Assembly: GCA_001798595.1 (NCBI GenBank) | Contig: MGSS01000154.1 | Location: forward strand, 23,169-68,287 | Direction of reading: 5' to 3' | From: Deltaproteobacteria bacterium RIFCSPLOWO2_12_FULL_60_19 | Lineage (GTDB): Bacteria; Desulfobacterota; Binatia; UBA9968 | DNA length: 45,119 bases | Shown: positions 3,441-30,038 of the stretch, in pieces | Layout of the letters: every line of letters begins with the position of its first letter | How positions within the stretch are numbered: position 1 is the stretch's first letter | Notes under the pieces: model-generated | The model's database searches: none | The model's input: the letters and a program-made list of their open reading frames with translations, nothing else | What the model was told of the DNA's origin: nothing | Position numbers and translations under genes: made by a program

Positions 3441-5997
3441 AAAAACAAAGCTCCGGCCATCTCCTCCGTTTTGGAAGTTTTCGAATCGTCACCAGCGCGC
3501 AATGATCGTAGTCGCCCGATAGCATCTCCATGCCGCGTATGTCCAGAGGGATGAATGAATTGAAGTGGATGCCTTTCATGGCCTGGCCCCGCGACCAGTG
3601 GCCGAAGCATGAAGCGATGGCGACGACGTCGGGATGGACGCATTCCGACAGCCGCGCCCGCCCTCGCGCAGTGTAGCCGTTGACGCCGGCCAGCTCAATC
3701 TCGTCGCCGTCGCCGACCCCGTGCGCCCTGGCGGTTTCACTGTTGAGAGTCACGTAAAGCGCGGTCCGGTGATGCTCCGACAGCTCGGCGAGCCAGGGAT
3801 TGTACTGCGTCGTCGTGGAGGTCTGAAACGGCAGCTTGTAGTTGACGGCGAAGAGTTGATCGGGCTGACGCGTCTCATGGCTCCAGCAGCCATGCCAGAA
3901 CGGCAGCGCCTGATAGCTCGACAGGTCCCACTTCAACTTGAGCCGCTCCAGCACCTCTTTGAGTTCTTGAGCGCGATCCAACAGGTGGGGAAAATAAACC
4001 GGCACGCGCGGCATCTTGAGCGCGCCCCTGGGGTAACGCTCCGGCAAGGCGCGCTCCCAGGCGACCAGGCCGTGCTTCTCGAACCAGCTCAAGCCGTGAT
4101 CTTCGCCGAACATCGAGCGCATGCGCCGTTCGACGATCTCCCGGTTGGAGTAGCGCCGGTCGGTTTCCAGCTTCTGGCCGTTCTTGAGTTTGAGCTCCGC
4201 GTTGAGACGCTTGGTGACCTCCGGCAGGAGTCCGAGCCGCTCCGCCCATTCGATGAAGAGGTCCACGGTGTGGCGCGCGTCCGGCGGCGGCGCTGCGGCA
4301 GGTTGGCGCGCGGTAAAATACCAGTGGCGGCCGGTGACCCAGCCCTCCAGACGGTTGGCCGGAAAGTCGAGCCGCTCCAAACCTTGGGCGATGGGGAGGA
4401 TAAGATCGGCGCATTCCAGCGTCTCGTCGAGCCGGTCGCCGAGCGCGACCACGAATGGAATTTTTTGAAACGCCTCGGCCATGCGCCGGGGGTCGGCGCC
4501 GCTCATCACCACGTTGCTGCCGAGGAGCACCATCATCTCCACCCGGTACGGAATCAGCTCGGGAAAATCGAGCAGCGCCAGTCCGAGCATCGGGCGCGGC
4601 TGCTTGCCGACGGGAAAAAGCTCGTGGAGCTCTACGGTGGCCGGCGCGGCCGGTTTTCTTTCCGGATGCTGATCGGTTCCGGGGAGGGCGCCGCCGAAAG
4701 CGATCATGCCGTCCTCTCCCGCTCTGACCCGCGCCTGCCCTTTCGGTCCGACGATGTTAGTGCTGATGCAGCCGCCGGGAACATCCAATGCGCCCACCAT
4801 GACGTTCAACAGCTGGATGGCGGTGCCGGTCCAGACGCCTTGCGTGTGGCAAGTCGAGCCGCGGCTGTCGGCAAAGGAGCATACCGGCCGGAACGGCATC
4901 CGCGCGCCGTCGATCTCAATCGTAGCGCCGATTTGAGCCGTCTCGCCGAACTCCCGCGCCACACGGCGCAGAGTTTCCGCCGGCACGGTTGATATTTTCT
5001 CGACCGCCTCCGGCGTATATTGAGCGATATGGCGGCGGAAAATTTCCAGCGCCGGACGGCAGGTCTCGCTGCCGATCAGGTATTCTCCGGCAATCGCCGG
5101 TCTTTTCAGATCCGGGTCGTCGTAACTTTTCGCCGAGCCGGTCTCCAGGTCCCACACCAACGGCTTGCCCGCCTCTCCCTGGCGCGCGTATCGCCCCGAA
5201 GCGGCTATCAGGTAAGGGGCGTTGGTCTGCTCCTGGAGAAACCGCTCGTCGCGGATTCCAATCTCATTGACCAGCACGTGCAATAGCGCCAGCGCCACCG
5301 CGCCGTCGGTGCCCGGTATAAGAGGGATCCATTCGGTGGCGTGCGAAGCGGTGGGAGAAGAGACCGGATCGAACACGACCACTCTCATGCCGCGCTCGCG
5401 GGCGTTCGCCATCGCCATCGCGCTCTTCATCGTGTCGTGGCCGCTGATCGAGCCTTTCTGCGAGCCGAAGAGGATCAGCAAGCGACAGTGGTCGAAATCG
5501 GGCTCGCTGTGCATCGAGCCGATGTTCATGTAAGAGGAGCGCGTGTGCGTGCCGAAGAAAACTCCGGTCGTGTAGTTGGGCGTGCGGAAGGCCTCGGCGA
5601 AGACGGCGCCGACCAGGCGCGACATCTCCACCTCGGCGATGCCGTTAACGAACAGGAGCTTTCGCGGATCCTCCCCGGCGATCTTGCGCATGCGGGATAC
5701 GACCTCTTCCACCGCTTCCTGCCAACTGACTTCCTTCCAGCCCGGATCCTGGCCCGGACCTTTGCGCGGATTGGTTCGTTTGAGGCAGCGGCTGAGCCGA
5801 TCGGGATCGTACAGCGCCATGACGGCGGCGTGGCCTTTGGCGCAGAGTTTGCCGAAATTGTGCGGGTTGTCCGGGTTGCCTTCGATCTTGACGACGACGC
5901 CGTTGACCCGATGAGCGAGAATGCCACAGCCGTTGCCGCACATCTTGCAGACGCTGGGAACCCAGACGTCGTCATCGGCATGGGCGCGAGCGGCCAC
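3418..5997 (-). CDS. Molybdopterin (bis-MGD) oxidoreductase, DMSO-reductase family, cytoplasmic
   Basis: About 859 residues if read from GTG at 5997. This start is preferred because AGGGGAGGAG lies just upstream and it follows the stop of the previous gene (6012) by 14 bp; an ATG at 6036 in the same frame has no ribosome site and overlaps that gene. The N-terminus carries Cys17-x2-Cys20-x3-Cys24-x27-Cys52, the [4Fe-4S] site of the family, followed by molybdopterin domains and a C-terminal dinucleotide-binding domain (FGHWSRGQAMKG region). There is no twin-arginine signal, so the protein should stay in the cytoplasm, and no electron-transfer subunit is encoded nearby. Lying between a binding protein and a UbiD gene, it may hydroxylate, dehydroxylate or reduce the same aromatic or heterocyclic substrate; transhydroxylase-like and dehydrogenase-like activities are both possible. 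The reaction is not determined. Confidence 0.9.
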   Translation of the reverse strand: MAARAHADDDVWVPSVCKMCGNGCGILAHRVNGVVVKIEGNPDNPHNFGKLCAKGHAAVMALYDPDRLSRCLKRTNPRKGPGQDPGWKEVSWQEAVEEVVSRMRKIAGEDPRKLLFVNGIAEVEMSRLVGAVFAEAFRTPNYTTGVFFGTHTRSSYMNIGSMHSEPDFDHCRLLILFGSQKGSISGHDTMKSAMAMANARERGMRVVVFDPVSSPTASHATEWIPLIPGTDGAVALALLHVLVNEIGIRDERFLQEQTNAPYLIAASGRYARQGEAGKPLVWDLETGSAKSYDDPDLKRPAIAGEYLIGSETCRPALEIFRRHIAQYTPEAVEKISTVPAETLRRVAREFGETAQIGATIEIDGARMPFRPVCSFADSRGSTCHTQGVWTGTAIQLLNVMVGALDVPGGCISTNIVGPKGQARVRAGEDGMIAFGGALPGTDQHPERKPAAPATVELHELFPVGKQPRPMLGLALLDFPELIPYRVEMMVLLGSNVVMSGADPRRMAEAFQKIPFVVALGDRLDETLECADLILPIAQGLERLDFPANRLEGWVTGRHWYFTARQPAAAPPPDARHTVDLFIEWAERLGLLPEVTKRLNAELKLKNGQKLETDRRYSNREIVERRMRSMFGEDHGLSWFEKHGLVAWERALPERYPRGALKMPRVPVYFPHLLDRAQELKEVLERLKLKWDLSSYQALPFWHGCWSHETRQPDQLFAVNYKLPFQTSTTTQYNPWLAELSEHHRTALYVTLNSETARAHGVGDGDEIELAGVNGYTARGRARLSECVHPDVVAIASCFGHWSRGQAMKGIHFNSFIPLDIRGMEMLSGDYDHCALVTIRKLPKRRRWPELCFYGIQGSA

Positions 5998-6011: not shown

Positions 6012-7052
6012 TCACTTCCCGCCCCCAACCGCCCATTGCGCTTGCGGCGCGCGACTCGCCGGCGGTAGAACCAGCTCGCGCCAGATTTTTTCATACTCGC
6101 TCTCCCGTTTTAAATAACTCTTGGCATCGAACAGGATCGCGTCGAAGCCGCTGCTCATATACGGGGGGTCGGCTTCCACCGCCGGGTGGCAGGGAACGCG
6201 CTTCCAGCGGCGATAAATTTTTTGCCCTTCGAGAGAGAGAATGTAATCGATCAACAGAAGCGCAGCGTGGGGATGCGGCGCGGCGGCCGGCAAGGCCGCG
6301 CCGACGAACTCGACCTCCACCGGCTCCAACGGGCGCCAGTCGATGGGCAGGTTGCGGCGCTTCAGCCACTCGGAGTTGTTGCTGTGGATATGCGGGGAAA
6401 GGGCGACGCTGCCGGCGGCGATCTGCTCGGCGATGATCTGGTGTCCGACGCGCACGCCGCCGACCTGCCGCCCCAGGGAGCGGAAAAACTCCAGCGCCTT
6501 TTTCTCGCCCCAGTGACCCATCAGCGCCGCCATCCAACTCGCATCGTGAGCTTCGACGGTAATCTTGCCCTTCAGCCTCGGGTCGAGCAGGCCGTCATAG
6601 TTATGCGGGACGGCGGCTTGGTCGATCAGCTGTGGGTTCCACGCCAGGACCAGATAATTTTTCTGCTCGGCGACCCAGAACCCTTCGCTCTCGCGCAGCT
6701 CGCGCGGATAAACTTCCGCCTCCGGCGAATAGTAGGGGCAGAGCAGCCCGCGCTCCTTGAGCTTCCCGAGATTGAGGTCGTTGATCTCGACGACGTCCGC
6801 CGCCGAGCCGCCGTCGCGGGACTCTTGAATAATGCGTTCCCTGACGACGACTCCTTTGTCGCGCACCATCTCGGGCTGGATGAACGGGTAGCGCATGCCG
6901 AAAGCCATGAGCAGCGATTGGATGTCCTCAGGCGCCGTCGAGGTATAGAAGCTCAACGTTCCTTCTTCCATCGCGCCGCGAGTCAATGCCTCCTTGCGCT
7001 CTTCCCCGCGAAGTTGCGCCAGCTCTTTTACGGAGTGCTTCTTTTGGCTCAT
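6012..7052 (-). CDS. Extracellular solute-binding protein fold (iron/thiamine-type), no signal peptide
   Basis: 346 residues from ATG at 7052, chosen because GAGGGG lies upstream and because an in-frame ATG at 7109 falls inside the structured repeat at 7077-7174. The body looks like the family 1/6 binding proteins of Fe(III)/spermidine/thiamine ABC systems: TLSFYTSTAPEDIQSLL at the start, DVVEINDLN, a LLDPRLKGKITVEA hinge region, and HPHAALLLIDYILSLEGQ near the end. These normally capture solute in the periplasm. Here the N-terminus (MSQKKHSVKELAQLRGEERK) is charged and has no hydrophobic stretch in either start choice, so export is not evident. No permease or ATPase gene is present. It sits between the two UbiD genes and ends 14 bp before the molybdopterin gene start. 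It could be an orphan that lost its leader, or a cytoplasmic ligand-binding protein. Confidence 0.85.
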   Translation of the reverse strand: MSQKKHSVKELAQLRGEERKEALTRGAMEEGTLSFYTSTAPEDIQSLLMAFGMRYPFIQPEMVRDKGVVVRERIIQESRDGGSAADVVEINDLNLGKLKERGLLCPYYSPEAEVYPRELRESEGFWVAEQKNYLVLAWNPQLIDQAAVPHNYDGLLDPRLKGKITVEAHDASWMAALMGHWGEKKALEFFRSLGRQVGGVRVGHQIIAEQIAAGSVALSPHIHSNNSEWLKRRNLPIDWRPLEPVEVEFVGAALPAAAPHPHAALLLIDYILSLEGQKIYRRWKRVPCHPAVEADPPYMSSGFDAILFDAKSYLKRESEYEKIWRELVLPPASRAPQAQWAVGGGK

Positions 7053-7076
7053 TCCCGCGCCCCTCGGCCTCGCAGG

Positions 7077-7174
7077 GAAAGACACCGCCCGTTCGAGGAG
7101 CCTGCGCATCCGATACTGCCGGTGGGAATAAGCAGCGACCCATTGCGCAGGCTTGGGTGAGGGCGGCGGCTTTC
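7077..7174. repeat. 98-nt structured palindromic repeat, copy A
   Basis: Outer arms at 7077-7090 and 7161-7174 pair over 13 of 14 positions (GAAAG..CACCGCCC with GGGCGGCGGCTTTC). Inside, GCCTGCGCA at 7100-7108 pairs perfectly with 7144-7152, and TGGG (7123) with CCCA (7139) closes an apical loop. Copy B at 17515-17613 is roughly 80% identical by eye and keeps all three stems, with a T-A to C-G compensatory change in the inner stem. On the minus strand this copy would be the leader of the binding-protein gene at 7052. Either a structured RNA or a MITE/REP-like element with terminal inverted repeats fits. I do not recognise it as a known riboswitch. Confidence 0.75.
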
Positions 7175-7195
7175 ATCGTCAAAGGCGACTTGGCT

Positions 7196-8821
7196 TCATA
7201 CCTTCTTTTTCTGCTGCAAGATCTCTTCCGCTATCTTATCGAACTCGCCGCGGTCGCCCATCTCGGCGTGGCGGCGATAGCTCTCCGGCCATTCCCCCCA
7301 GGAGACGCCGTGCCACGGCTCGCGCGGCTTAAGCGGCGGAAGCCCCTCCTCTTCCCAGATCTCCCTGGCCCGCTCCATGTATTTTTTGGTCGGCAAAGAG
7401 GTCGGCGTGTAGGGCCACTTGCGCGTCGCGTCGATCAAGATCGAAGAATTTCCCTGAAGCCCGGAGCGGTTGGTCGGATATTCCTGCTCGTCGAGCGATA
7501 GGGTGCGCGGGCCGCCCGACTGGTCCGCCGTCGCGCCCCGGCCCTGGACGATGTGAGTGTCGCGGTGGGGTTGATAGCGAAAACAGATCGCCCAGAAGAC
7601 GGAATCCAAATCCCACGGGTCGATATCGTCGTCGACGGCGATGGCGATCTTGGGCCATTCGGTCGAGACGGCGAGCGAGGCGTTGAGCGCCTGCCAGACG
7701 GTTCGATTGGAGGTCCGTGTGCCGCCCAGGTCTTGCAGCCGGATGACGGTCAGCCGGCGCGACCCGCCGCAGTGGTGAAACGCCACGTCTTTCACCTGGG
7801 GAATGCCGCAGGAGCCGCGGAGAAAGTTGATCATGTGGGCTTCGCGATTGATGTTGCCCATCACGCTCGACTCGCTCGGCGGAAATTGGTCGACTAGATC
7901 GTGCCAGATGGGATTTTTGCGGTGCGTGATGCAGCGGATGTGAAAAGCCAGGGCCGAGCGATCGATAAAAGTGTAGCCGGTGTGCTCGCCGCTCGCGGGG
8001 TCCGGCAGAACGTAGTCCGTGGGGATTTCTCCTTCCAGGACGATCTCCGCCGTCGCCGGAACGTCCAGATCGACCGTCTCGCAACGCACCACCTCGATCG
8101 GCTCGCCCGCCAGGCCGCCGGCGACATCCAGCTCGGAGACGCCGTAAGGAATCTCCGTGATGCTGGTCATCACCACGGCCGGCGACGGCCCCACGACCGC
8201 CGCCACCTGGAGCGGCACGCCGCGCCCTTTGCACTTCTGCCAGTGGATTCTCATATGGCCGCGCGGCGAAACCCGGGCGCAACTTTCCAACGGGCCGAGC
8301 AAGACGCCGTTGTAAGTGCCGACGTTGACCTCTCCCGTCTCCGGATCTTTGCTGACCCAGCAGAGGCCGCTCAAGCGGGGCAGCGCCTCCCAACCGTTGG
8401 TGGTGACCGGTATCGGAAACTCTTTGAGCCCGCCGTGGGCGAGCAATCCTTCGCCGGCGTGGATCTCCTCTTTCACCGGCCCGCTCGGGACGCGCTTAGG
8501 AGGCAGAGGGCGGCGAAAGGCCTCGGCCCACCTGTCGTACATCGCCTGGCGGGTCGCGGCGCAGTTGAGCGCTATGGCATAGGCTTCTAAAGACGGCGCG
8601 ATGACCGCGGAGGCGACCGCGCCGTTGTAACTCTCGCCGTGGGTTCCCACGAGCCGGTCGAAGAGAAAGCCGAAACGTTCGCCCTCGTCGAGGCCGCGGA
8701 ACTGCCAACGGACGAGAGGATGCAGCTCCGTGTCCTTGTTGATTGCGCGGCGGATGCGTTTGAGCTTGCCCGCTTTTTCCAGCGCTTCGAGATAACCTCT
8801 TAAATCTTTGTATGCGGCCAT
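7196..8821 (-). CDS. UbiD-family protein with altered catalytic positions
   Basis: 541 residues from ATG at 8821, longer than the other UbiD here because of a C-terminal tail of about 40 residues. The opening MAAYKDLRGYLEALEKAG, the QFPPSESSVMGNINRE region and ILIDATRKWPYTPTSLP are family hallmarks. The active-site positions differ from the canonical set: the GTYR arginine is Asn171 (NVGTYNGV) and the EGPFGE motif reads DPASGE, giving Asp274 for the first glutamate while Glu279 is kept. It follows the SsuA/THI5-type gene by 4 bp, so the two are surely co-transcribed. It may be a decarboxylase with shifted chemistry, or a partner subunit of the canonical UbiD, since multi-subunit UbiD-like carboxylases with inactive paralogues are known. 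Function is inferred from family only. Confidence 0.92.
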   Translation of the reverse strand: MAAYKDLRGYLEALEKAGKLKRIRRAINKDTELHPLVRWQFRGLDEGERFGFLFDRLVGTHGESYNGAVASAVIAPSLEAYAIALNCAATRQAMYDRWAEAFRRPLPPKRVPSGPVKEEIHAGEGLLAHGGLKEFPIPVTTNGWEALPRLSGLCWVSKDPETGEVNVGTYNGVLLGPLESCARVSPRGHMRIHWQKCKGRGVPLQVAAVVGPSPAVVMTSITEIPYGVSELDVAGGLAGEPIEVVRCETVDLDVPATAEIVLEGEIPTDYVLPDPASGEHTGYTFIDRSALAFHIRCITHRKNPIWHDLVDQFPPSESSVMGNINREAHMINFLRGSCGIPQVKDVAFHHCGGSRRLTVIRLQDLGGTRTSNRTVWQALNASLAVSTEWPKIAIAVDDDIDPWDLDSVFWAICFRYQPHRDTHIVQGRGATADQSGGPRTLSLDEQEYPTNRSGLQGNSSILIDATRKWPYTPTSLPTKKYMERAREIWEEEGLPPLKPREPWHGVSWGEWPESYRRHAEMGDRGEFDKIAEEILQQKKKV

Positions 8822-16596: not shown

Positions 16597-17442
16597 ATGG
16601 CTATGCCGGACACAACTCAAGTCGAGCCGCCACAGAGCGGCGGAGTTCGAGCGGATCGGTTTTCCCTGGCCCGCGCGGCGTATCGCCTGCGCGACGTGGG
16701 GATGTCGGAGGCGGCTCACGCGCTCGAGCACCTCGATCACTCGCTGCGCGAACACGGCTCGCGCGGCCAACATCTGGCCGACGCGGTGCTCGGCGCCACG
16801 GACGGCATCGTCACCACATTCGCCGTCGTGGCGGGCGCCGCCGGGGCTTCTCTCTCCCCGGGGGTCGTGCTTATCATGGGCTTTGCGAATCTCGTCGCCG
16901 ACGGCTTCTCGATGGCGGTGAGCAATTATCTGGGCGCTCGCTCGCAACAAGACGCCTGGAGCGAGGAGCGCAAGCGCGAGATCTGGGAGGTCGAGCATCT
17001 GCCGGAGGCGGAGCGGGAAGAGATCCGCCGCATCTATCGGCGCAAGGGCTTCACCGGCGAGATTTTAGAGCGTATTGTCGCCACGATCACGGAAGACGAG
17101 CAGCGCTGGGTGGAGGAGATGATGCGCGAAGAGTTGGGAATTCACGAGGAGCGGATCACCCCGCTGGCGAGCGGCGCAGTCACGTTCGTGGCGTTTATCC
17201 TGGCGGGCTTCCTGCCGCTCTTGTTCTATGTTCTGAACTTTTTCGGAATCTCCCTCCCGTTCGGCGCCTTCACCATGTCGCTCGGCGTCACGATGGCGGC
17301 GCTCTTCGGCGTCGGCGCCGCGCGCTCGTTTATGACTCTTCGCCCATGGTGGCGCAGCGGATTGGAAATCCTGATAGTCGGCGGCCTGGCCGCCGCTTGC
17401 GCGTTTGTGGTAGGTGTCTTGCTGCGGCAACTTGCAGGGTGA
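16597..17442 (+). CDS. VIT1/CCC1-family iron/manganese transporter
   Basis: 281 residues. The core HLADAVLGATDGIVTTFAVV and GFANLVADGFSMAVSNYLG are the first two membrane helices of the VIT/CCC1 family, which moves Fe(II) or Mn(II) out of the cytoplasm. A charged helical insert with ExxE pairs follows (residues 125-185, including DEQRWVEEMMREELGI), like the cytosolic metal-binding domain of plant VIT1, then three more hydrophobic helices to the end. The N-terminal 45 residues hold several histidines. The ATG at 16597 has no ribosome site; ATG 16702 (after GTGGGG) would give a shorter protein starting MSEAAHALEH. A -24/-12-like element precedes it. Iron handling fits a window rich in Fe-S and di-iron enzymes. 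Confidence 0.9.
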   Translation: MAMPDTTQVEPPQSGGVRADRFSLARAAYRLRDVGMSEAAHALEHLDHSLREHGSRGQHLADAVLGATDGIVTTFAVVAGAAGASLSPGVVLIMGFANLVADGFSMAVSNYLGARSQQDAWSEERKREIWEVEHLPEAEREEIRRIYRRKGFTGEILERIVATITEDEQRWVEEMMREELGIHEERITPLASGAVTFVAFILAGFLPLLFYVLNFFGISLPFGAFTMSLGVTMAALFGVGAARSFMTLRPWWRSGLEILIVGGLAAACAFVVGVLLRQLAG

Positions 17443-17514
17443 CCTCTGAGCGTTGCCTCAGGGCGCAAGTCTTTAGGCGGCAACCCTCTCCCACGCGCCC
17501 TTCCGTTTCGCAAC

Positions 17515-17613
17515 GAAAGCCGCCGCCCGGTCGGAGAGCCCGCGCATCCGATACCGGCGGTGGGATTAAGCAGCTACCCATTGCGCGGGATCGGAGACTG
17601 GGTGGTGGCTTTC
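17515..17613. repeat. 99-nt structured palindromic repeat, copy B
   Basis: Same orientation and fold as copy A (7077-7174). Outer arms GAAAGCCGCCGCCC (17515-17528) and GGGTGGTGGCTTTC (17600-17613) pair with two mismatches; the inner stem is CCCGCGCA (17539-17546) with TGCGCGGG (17582-17589), and TGGG (17561) with CCCA (17577) closes the apical loop. The loop words ATCCGATAC, GGTGGGA and TAAGCAGC are conserved between copies. Similarity extends about 15 bp to the right (ATCAAAGGTGA). It lies between the VIT gene and the metallo-hydrolase gene, ending 46 bp before the latter's ATG. Confidence 0.75.
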
Positions 17614-17659
17614 GTGATCAAAGGTGATACTGAGATAGTGACCATTCTTTCCGTCTGAC

Positions 17660-19075
17660 ATGTCTCAAGCCGGACAACGTTCAACGGAGCTTTCCGTCAG
17701 ATTCCTCGGCGGGGCCGGCACGGTCACCGGCTCTAAGTTTCTCCTCGCTTCCGGGTCGGAGCGGATACTGATCGACTGCGGTCTGTTCCAGGGGTTGAAG
17801 GACTACCGCCTTCGCAACTGGGCGCCGCTTCAGGTTCCGATCCGCGATCTAAGCTCGATCGTTCTCACCCACGCGCATATCGATCACTCAGGTTATCTTC
17901 CCCGGCTCGTGCGGGAGGGATTCCACGGCGAGGTCTACGCCACGCCGCCCACCTGCGATCTTCTCCGGGTGCTGCTCCCCGACGCCGCCCACCTGCAGGA
18001 GGAGGAAGCCCGCTACGCCAACCTCCGCGGCTATTCCAAACACAAGCCCGCGCTGCCTCTCTACACGGCGGAAGACGCCGAGCGCGCCCTGCGCCTGCTT
18101 CGCCCGGTTGCTTTCGGCCGGGAGCTGGGCCTGGCGGGCGAGCTTTCGCTCAGGTTTTTTCGCGCGGGGCATATCCTGGGCGCCGCGGCGGCGCGGATCA
18201 CGGTCGGGACCGGCGCAACTCAAAAGCGGCTTGTGGATTCGGGCGACCTGGGGCGCTATGGAAAACCGATACTCAAAGATCCCGAGGCTGTCGCCGAGGC
18301 CGATTGGCTGCTGATCGAGTCCACTTACGGCGATCGTCTGCACCCGGAAAAGCCTGAGGAAGAGATGGCGCGCGTCATCAACGAAGCGGCGGATGAGCGG
18401 GGCTGCTTGGTCGTGCCCGCCTTTGCCGTCGGCCGGACGCAAGAGTTGATTTACACGATACGGAAGCTGGAGGACGACGGGAAAATTCCTTCTCTGCCGG
18501 TGCATGTCGACAGCCCGATGGCGATCGACGCGACGGATATCTACGGCGCCCATCCGGAGGAGCACGACCTCGACATGAAGTTGTTGATGGATCGCAAGCT
18601 CTGCCCGCTCTGTTGCCGGCAGTTTCATATCCACCGGACGGCGGAGGAATCGAAAGCCATCAACCAGCTGCGCGGCCCGAGAATCATCATCTCGGCGAGC
18701 GGCATGGCGACGGGCGGGCGCGTGCTCCACCATTTGAAGCTGCGGCTGCCCGATCCCAAAACGACCGTCCTCTTCGTCGGCTTTCAAGGGGAGGGGACGC
18801 GGGGCAGGGCGCTGCAGGACGGCAAAAAAGAGATCAAGATGTTGGGCGAGATCGTTCCGGTGCGCGCCAAGATCAAAACGATCGACGGCTTCTCCGCCCA
18901 CGCCGACCGGCAGGAGATCCTCCGCTGGCTCAAAAATTTCACCCGCCCGCCGCGAAAGACGTTCGTCGTCCACGGCGAACCGCCCGCGAGCCAGGCTCTG
19001 GCGGAGGAGATCAGGAAAACCTTGAGATGGAGCGTGGAAGTGCCCAGTTACGGCCAGACGGCTGTCTTGAAATGA
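17660..19075 (+). CDS. MBL-fold beta-CASP metallo-hydrolase (CPSF/YSH1-like RNA-processing type)
   Basis: 471 residues, typical for bacterial stand-alone beta-CASP proteins. The zinc site HAHIDHSG (71-78) opens the metallo-beta-lactamase domain, with further ligands at GHILGAAAAR and the SGDLGR aspartate; the beta-CASP insert includes PAFAVGRTQELIY and the GMATGGRVLHH segment, and the closing SAHADRQE and VVHGEP motifs carry the last histidines. Related proteins are endo/exonucleases acting on RNA in the cytoplasm. It stands alone downstream of the structured repeat, which on the plus strand would be in its leader. Its last 65 bp overlap the antisense vapBC relic. The exact substrate is unknown. 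Confidence 0.92.
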   Translation: MSQAGQRSTELSVRFLGGAGTVTGSKFLLASGSERILIDCGLFQGLKDYRLRNWAPLQVPIRDLSSIVLTHAHIDHSGYLPRLVREGFHGEVYATPPTCDLLRVLLPDAAHLQEEEARYANLRGYSKHKPALPLYTAEDAERALRLLRPVAFGRELGLAGELSLRFFRAGHILGAAAARITVGTGATQKRLVDSGDLGRYGKPILKDPEAVAEADWLLIESTYGDRLHPEKPEEEMARVINEAADERGCLVVPAFAVGRTQELIYTIRKLEDDGKIPSLPVHVDSPMAIDATDIYGAHPEEHDLDMKLLMDRKLCPLCCRQFHIHRTAEESKAINQLRGPRIIISASGMATGGRVLHHLKLRLPDPKTTVLFVGFQGEGTRGRALQDGKKEIKMLGEIVPVRAKIKTIDGFSAHADRQEILRWLKNFTRPPRKTFVVHGEPPASQALAEEIRKTLRWSVEVPSYGQTAVLK

Positions 19076-29920: not shown

Positions 29921-29930
29921 CGATAACATC

Positions 29931-30020
29931 GCAAAATGAAAACTGCAAAATGCAAATTGCAAAATTGTCCGGACTCTCTTCCGCTTTGCATTTTTCAATT
30001 TGCACTTTGCATTTTGCATT
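29931..30020. repeat. Long imperfect inverted repeat of TGCAAAA words
   Basis: The left arm (29944-29967, TGCAAAATGCAAATTGCAAA plus ATTG) and the right arm (29997-30019, CAATTTGCACTTTGCATTTTGCA) pair over about 23 positions around a 29-nt loop. The words match the GCATTTT array at 1981. It lies between the delta and alpha-gamma subunit genes and would form a stable mRNA stem just before the next ribosome site at 30027. Confidence 0.8.
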
Positions 30021-30038
30021 GACCTTGGAGGTGTAAGC

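Follow-up and report, generated by a model that had tools for sequence, protein, structure and literature searches.

REPs are palindromes of 20-40 bp (PMC3733652), and together with BIMEs and REPINs they are among the described systems that come closest to the repeat reported here: like it, they occur as many dispersed, mosaic, intergenic palindromes near the 3' ends of upstream genes (PMC3116915; PMC3733652). Compensatory changes in the hairpin have been reported for REPINs (PMC3116915; PMC3733652). CGTC REPs are described as having a CGTC tag, a stem of 8-9 bp that starts with AT, a loop of 4-5 nt and a CCA tail (PMC3733652), and TnpA-REP (RAYT) enzymes are described as binding single-strand REP hairpins in a strand-specific manner (PMC8266576). 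We use the terms RAYT, BIME and MITE as in PMC3733652, PMC2229807, PMC3116915 and PMC8266576.

The repeat analyzed here was noticed in a window of 45,119 nt (the whole stretch of DNA under study) from the draft genome of Deltaproteobacteria bacterium RIFCSPLOWO2_12_FULL_60_19. The original prediction, made from the letters alone, described two copies of a structured element of 98 nt, which could be a new structured RNA, a mobile palindrome or an independent small RNA. Our analysis indicates that this hairpin, which we call module II, is probably part of a new non-autonomous, mosaic family of interspersed palindromes (REP/BIME/ERIC-like and, broadly, MITE-like) that is spread by a mobiliser encoded elsewhere. 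We have seen this repeat family in only one family of uncultured bacteria.

Results

Both predicted copies, at 7077-7174 (copy A) and 17515-17613 (copy B) and thought to be about 80% alike, were located where they had been placed (Table 1). A repeat search paired positions 7056-7156 with 17494-17594 at 81% identity, and a MAFFT alignment over a longer stretch gave 84%. In line with the proposed stems, a hairpin is predicted in copy A (z of -2.65 and -5.79 on the two strands) and in copy B (z of -7.25 and -5.32). The 98-nt hairpin thus exists as described (for copy A, module II measures 102 nt by the covariance model), but the repeat is wider than was first drawn: a tail follows the hairpin on the right, and on the left it has a partner hairpin, most of which has been lost from each of the window copies. 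Copy A had also been placed in the leader of a binding-protein gene; that gene does adjoin it, but this is only half of the context, the other half being that module II starts 19 nt after the stop codon of the UbiD gene. A place just 3' of a stop codon is the commoner one among the copies of this genome (30/45).

Table 1. Features at the two copies of the repeat in the window (positions counted from the first letter of the window).
Feature	Position	Strand	Evidence
Extracellular solute-binding protein (SBP_bac_6), flanks copy A	6012..7052	-	Pfam PF13343, E 7.9e-15; start set at 7052, the alternative at 7109 falling within the element
Copy A, module I remnant, right-hand end only, 21 nt	7054..7074	+	matches right end of module I in 11 full-length copies of the genome
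Copy A, module II	7075..7176	+	covariance model R1, 90.9 bits, E 7.2e-19; same as G000:C154:30243-30344
Copy A, shortened right tail CGTCAAAGGCGA..., up to UbiD stop codon	7177..7195	+	CGTCAA-GGTGATC tail common to many copies
UbiD-type decarboxylase, flanks copy A	7196..8821	-	Pfam PF01977, E 6.3e-44
VIT1 family protein, flanks copy B	16603..17442	+	Pfam PF01988, E 8e-66
Copy B, module I without its apical hairpin	17456..17512	+	outer arms CCTCAGGGCGCAAGTCTT ... CCCTCTCCCACGCGCCC both present, middle absent
Copy B, module II hairpin	17513..17615	+	covariance model R1, 114.8 bits, E 2e-24; same as G000:C154:40681-40783
Copy B, right tail ATCAAAGGTGAT...GTGACCATTC, end approximate	17616..17648	+	tail conserved among copies
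Beta-CASP/RMMBL metallo-hydrolase (RNA-specificity domain), flanks copy B	17660..19075	+	PF10996, E 4.2e-38; PF07521, E 3.1e-22

Other repeats were seen in the window as well. Positions 2685-2790 and 8030-8135 form a 106-nt direct repeat (77% identity), which is possibly paralogous coding sequence and the second copy of which lies within the UbiD gene. Short tandem arrays of the TTGCATTTT/TTGCAAAAT type occur at 1974-2029 and 29924-30029, 28 kb apart, one direct and one partly inverted.

A covariance-model search of the genome, which the original prediction had proposed, showed that its "two copies" were an under-count. The model (R1, trained on 21 copies) placed module II at 46 distinct sites in the draft genome (4.19 Mb, 162 contigs), 45 of them at E <= 6.4e-15 and the remaining one, on contig 102, weakly at 2.2e-5; the 84 raw matches reduce to these 46 places as both strands of the same palindromes were matched. 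Recent movement is not demonstrated by these copies, since the highest likeness between any two of them is 96%.

Among the 25 genomes of the family, the covariance model detected module II in eight (the present genome, G000, and G007, G002, G012, G018, G022, G009 and G016), the other 17 being without it. At least 39 copies are present in G007; the figures given below for that genome refer to 39 examined copies, with one weaker match (44.4 bits) and further partial copies lying outside them. These copies may stem from more than one organism, because the G007 assembly measures 8.3 Mb and carries 9% contamination. A DNA search gave matches in 9 of 39 genomes, all in the same family, counting the present genome and a partial match in G006; zero matches were obtained in the 16 genomes from other families of the order and class. 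A pattern scan of a named genome collection, which may exclude the present genome, retrieved three loci in the MAGs Deltaproteobacteria bacterium RIFCSPLOWO2_02_56_12 and RIFCSPLOWO2_12_FULL_60_16, which from identical match coordinates we infer to be G012 and G018. The viral contigs, phages and plasmids searched gave no match, and carriage by a phage or plasmid was rejected on this basis.

Alignment of the copies revealed a composite structure. The full unit, about 230 nt long, consists of a left hairpin, module I (~125 nt), followed by module II (98 nt) and a short tail; units range from ~100 to 230 nt, and no protein is coded inside. Eleven copies in the present genome are full length. The unit starts near an ATTCC-CCGAAAGCGAG word, the stems of module I (by eye, in the full-length alignment) are TTCCC/GGGAA, GCGAG/CTCGC, GGCGCGAG/CTCGCGCC and GGGCCGCGG/CCGCGGCCC, and the tail, CGTCAA-GGTGATC..., extends in intact copies to a CATTCCTCC-like word. 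In module II the inverted arms are long, but the outer ends of the unit do not form an inverted-repeat pair. A possible tRNA-like arm was also noted by eye in module I.

In the remaining copies module I is partly lost or other hairpins are substituted for it, with inner parts of the unit deleted, swapped, or nested with other palindromes, and the sequence 5' of module II differs among copies. Several copies (the left flanks of L128, L131 and L251, and L254) have an AT-rich hairpin of the GATTTGAGATCTGAGATTTGAGATT type in place of inner module I. At locus L145 of G007 module II is inverted within the unit, and contigs C98 and C138 of the present genome resemble this arrangement, as judged from the left flank only. 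A 20-nt palindrome, CCTGCCTGCCGGCAGGCAGG, is nested at one and the same loop position in 27 of the 39 G007 copies, for which one insertion followed by spread is the simplest explanation. A longer-centred version of module II is found at a G006 locus (C261, L254 at ~4390-4640); a search with this longer center matched 5 of 58 genomes (G000, G002, G006, G007 and G019), mostly through the arms and tail only, and arms and tail alone recur widely in G006 and G019.

To examine the hairpin we used the 41 gap-free copies of the present genome, leaving out five of the 46, copy A among them, with a length other than 103. In this set 96.8% of cells pair, as compared to 35-48% with slid structures, and two-sided changes occur at 14 of the 29 pairs. 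Chance is excluded as the source of this pattern, because all five covariation measures beat 500/500 shuffles (0/500 shuffles reached any of them) and slid structures pair far fewer cells. The compensatory change in the inner stem that was first seen between the window copies lies at columns 29/75, with T-A in copy A and C-G in copy B, and T-A recurs in 12 of the 41 copies. Further copies with stem-breaking changes, which the original prediction had named as evidence against the structure, gave the opposite outcome: the stems are preserved across copies. The loop words ATCCGATAC and TAAGCAGC, said there to be invariant, are indeed the same in A and B; in the genome-wide set ATCCGATAC is unchanged in 40/41 copies (one change, at column 39), but the TAAGCAGC word is variable.

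One-sided changes read on the + strand produce G-U in 29 cells and A-C in 4, a count made without pairs 2-102 and 13-91, the latter being G-U in the consensus. The G-U excess is not due to a C>T bias, since in unpaired columns G>A changes (32) outnumber C>T changes (12). With G-U tolerated on the + strand and A-C not, the base changes make this strand most likely the one under constraint. The + strand is also the more stable in 39/41 copies by RNA energies and in 41/41 by DNA energies, and in 36/39 G007 copies by RNA energies; copy A, outside the 41-copy set, is an exception among the copies in that its - strand folds better. Among variants shared by several copies the ratio of G-U to A-C is 10:1, as compared to 17:13 among those private to one copy (Fisher p 0.064), a contrast suggestive of constraint on spreading lineages and decay in resident copies. 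Plain decay is disfavored by 15 private two-sided compensations, nine in the present genome and six in G007.

With genes called by a simple hexamer-based caller, 45/46 copies in the present genome and 39/39 in G007 are intergenic, the one exception lying inside a weakly scored short ORF. The right end of the unit faces a stop codon in 30/45 and 28/38 copies, respectively, mostly within tens of bases. At same-strand junctions the + strand is antisense to both genes in 27 cases and sense in 9 in the present genome, and in 22 and 5 in G007; pooled over the two genomes, antisense prevails by 49 to 14 (p 1e-5). The available text of PMC3733652 reports no preferred strand polarity for REPs. By reasoning alone, the antisense polarity is opposite to the expectation for insertion into a lagging-strand template.

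Comparison with relatives revealed junctions at which the element is absent. The UbiD-SBP gene pair that flanks copy A is kept in five relatives (UbiD 81-88% identical), none of which has the element there; copy A is therefore an insertion. The gap between the two genes measures 143 nt in the present genome and ~2-20 nt in G007, G018, G022 and G012, and in G013 it measures 175 nt and contains another palindromic sequence. This empty site in 5/5 relatives, together with the 46 places and the patchy spread among relatives, supports the mobile palindrome that had been one of the three options offered. Another copy in the present genome lies between atpG and atpD, in a gap of 265 nt. In 20 relatives this gap is 17-22 nt in ten (among them G009, with 89% identity in AtpG), 49-281 nt in nine, and unmeasurable in one; module II was absent from the atpG loci of the 18 of these relatives that were scanned, in a scan that also took in the relatives' loci for copy B (nine) and copy A (five). 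For copy B, nine relatives were examined, and in none of them was the metallo-hydrolase gene seen to adjoin the VIT1 gene.

Relatives without the element carry other repeat-like or palindromic sequences in the same junctions (L210, L212, L217-L219 and L221 for atpG-atpD; L307 for UbiD-SBP), as if such operon junctions were shared landing places. Three copies in the present genome share both neighbors with copies in other genera (G018 and G012, or G016), with differing left flanks. These sites represent either old copies held in common or repeated hits on one junction, which means that some copies may have been retained since an early date. No consistent target-site duplication was found beside the copies, and there was no close strain to give exact empty sites; a candidate word, ATTCCTCCGAAAGCG, lies near the left end in 12/46 copies, with left and right words unpaired copy by copy as judged by eye.

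Our search found neither a mobiliser nor an autonomous parent of the element, and four partial-copy loci inspected by eye show rearranged modules with no recognizable transposase gene. Y1_Tnp, the RAYT domain, is found in 25/25 genomes of the family, as compared to 8/25 for the element, with G004 having 18 Y1 matches and no element; since Y1 presence does not track the element across the 25 genomes, a RAYT mobiliser was rejected. There are three Y1_Tnp genes in the present genome; the covariance model detected module II at none of these loci, and by eye their flanks are without module-like sequence. One RAYT-like Y1 gene (contig C144, L133) has GGGGTCAGAC...GTCTGACCCC ends unrelated to the module I/II repeat. 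At L134 (contig C64, ~69.4-69.6 kb), ~1.5 kb from a Y1 gene, lies a repeat of ~90-190 nt that matches more than 10 other loci of the genome and is a separate interspersed family.

Comparison with Rfam gave no match at gathering score in the window and none up to E 1 at two full-length-copy loci, in agreement with the earlier view that the element belongs to no recognized riboswitch class; a riboswitch or other known RNA was rejected accordingly. An intrinsic terminator was likewise rejected, neither window copy having a terminator-like site.

Discussion

The repeat described here is dispersed over the genome, is missing from orthologous junctions in relatives, has a hairpin held by covariation and sits at gene ends in a preferred polarity. 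In the broad sense, dispersed copies, presence and absence at orthologous junctions and the lack of a protein coded inside are what characterizes mobile palindromes. In the palindrome family that we propose, a mobilizing enzyme encoded elsewhere would spread the unit, and selection on the hairpin would act mainly on lineages that are still spreading. With less assurance, we suggest that the form recognized may be the folded single + strand, as DNA or RNA, because it is on this strand that G-U pairs are tolerated and A-C pairs are not. Any effect on host mRNA would be secondary. By analogy, such a strand-specific fold would suit an enzyme of the TnpA-REP type, since these bind single-strand REP hairpins strand-specifically, a link that we do not make here. 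A more elaborate version, in which the elements travel as a folded single + strand, are set next to gene ends in their preferred polarity by a machinery other than a RAYT or any known insertion sequence, and grow by swapping or nesting other palindromes inside their hairpins, is offered tentatively and is unlikely to hold in full.

An RNA role of the element is possible. The + strand might produce a multicopy structured small RNA that acts in trans, or antisense at the 3' end of a neighbor, dispersal having multiplied its genes. Its better folding and retained G-U pairs would fit such an RNA, as would the loop core ATCCGATAC, unchanged in all but one of the 41 copies, and the antisense orientation to both neighbors in 49/63 same-strand junctions. 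We nevertheless consider this improbable: among sigma-70 patterns, neither window copy has a promoter-like site, and neither has a terminator-like one; the sequence upstream of module II varies among copies; private mutations have no G-U preference over A-C; and two-thirds of the family (17/25 genomes) lack the element. Alternatively, the - strand might act in cis as an mRNA hairpin after the stop codon, stabilizing or ending the transcript that comes from upstream, a role that has been proposed for REPs and ERIC. The location just 3' of stop codons, in 30/45 and 28/38 copies, is what would be expected of such a hairpin, but the - strand folds less well in 39/41 copies and the wobble evidence favors the + strand; moreover, no terminator-like T run is present at the window copies, and the same junctions function in relatives without the element, all of which makes a cis-acting role quite improbable.

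It is also conceivable that the repeat is a GTAG-type REP or REPIN moved by a RAYT (Y1 transposase, TnpA-REP) of its own genome. The - strand of many copies in this genome has a GTAG word and, after it, what may be a CTGC...GCAG hairpin (by eye), three Y1_Tnp genes are at hand, and RAYTs are described as binding single-strand hairpins in a strand-specific manner (PMC8266576). However, no conserved GTAG tag marks the base of the hairpin, the word being lost in the G007 copies, and neither the distribution of Y1_Tnp nor the three Y1 loci point to a connection with module II, so that we regard this origin as very improbable.

With this family, which is well documented and specific to one lineage, the small mobile palindromes of bacteria gain a member from a clade known here mainly from assembled genomes. 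The copies permit a test that is usually hard, namely whether the hairpin is constrained in the spreading lineage or in each resident copy, and the preferred orientation of copies next to stop codons, in which the strand that folds better is antisense to the gene upstream, provides a clue to target choice. Identification of the mobiliser may also make CGTC-type REPs testable, which PMC3733652 describes as having no dedicated transposase. A literature search by place, kind and sequence words, with subscription papers mostly outside its coverage, found no description of this repeat.

As compared to REPs, module II is 98 nt long with a conserved center, has no conserved GTAG tag and showed no link to a RAYT; some units have a CGTC word close to each end, though it does not tag a stem of 8-9 bp. 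Its stems and loop are far longer than those of CGTC REPs, and the CGTC word stands outside the stem, in the tail, which places the repeat outside that class. The first half of the CGTC-1 REP (dRS3-like, ATTCCC...GGGAAT) resembles the left terminus of full copies (CGTCATTCCC-CGAAAGCG); a single instance of the exact ATTCCC...GGGAAT palindrome is present in 426 kb of loci from the present genome, and the resemblance may be due to chance. ERIC, or IRU (RU-1), is likewise an imperfect palindrome found between genes; it is non-coding, comparable in size at 127 bp, and classed as a MITE (PMC2229807). Going by its description, it differs in belonging to another host group, and the hairpin described here is half of a two-hairpin composite with one preferred polarity. 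The Caulobacter CIR is described as an intergenic repeat of ~110 bp with two inverted-repeat arms and a linker, copied by an unknown mechanism (PMC2229807); on the same descriptive basis, conserved GANTC sites are a feature of CIR, and its host clade differs from the one in which the present family is found.
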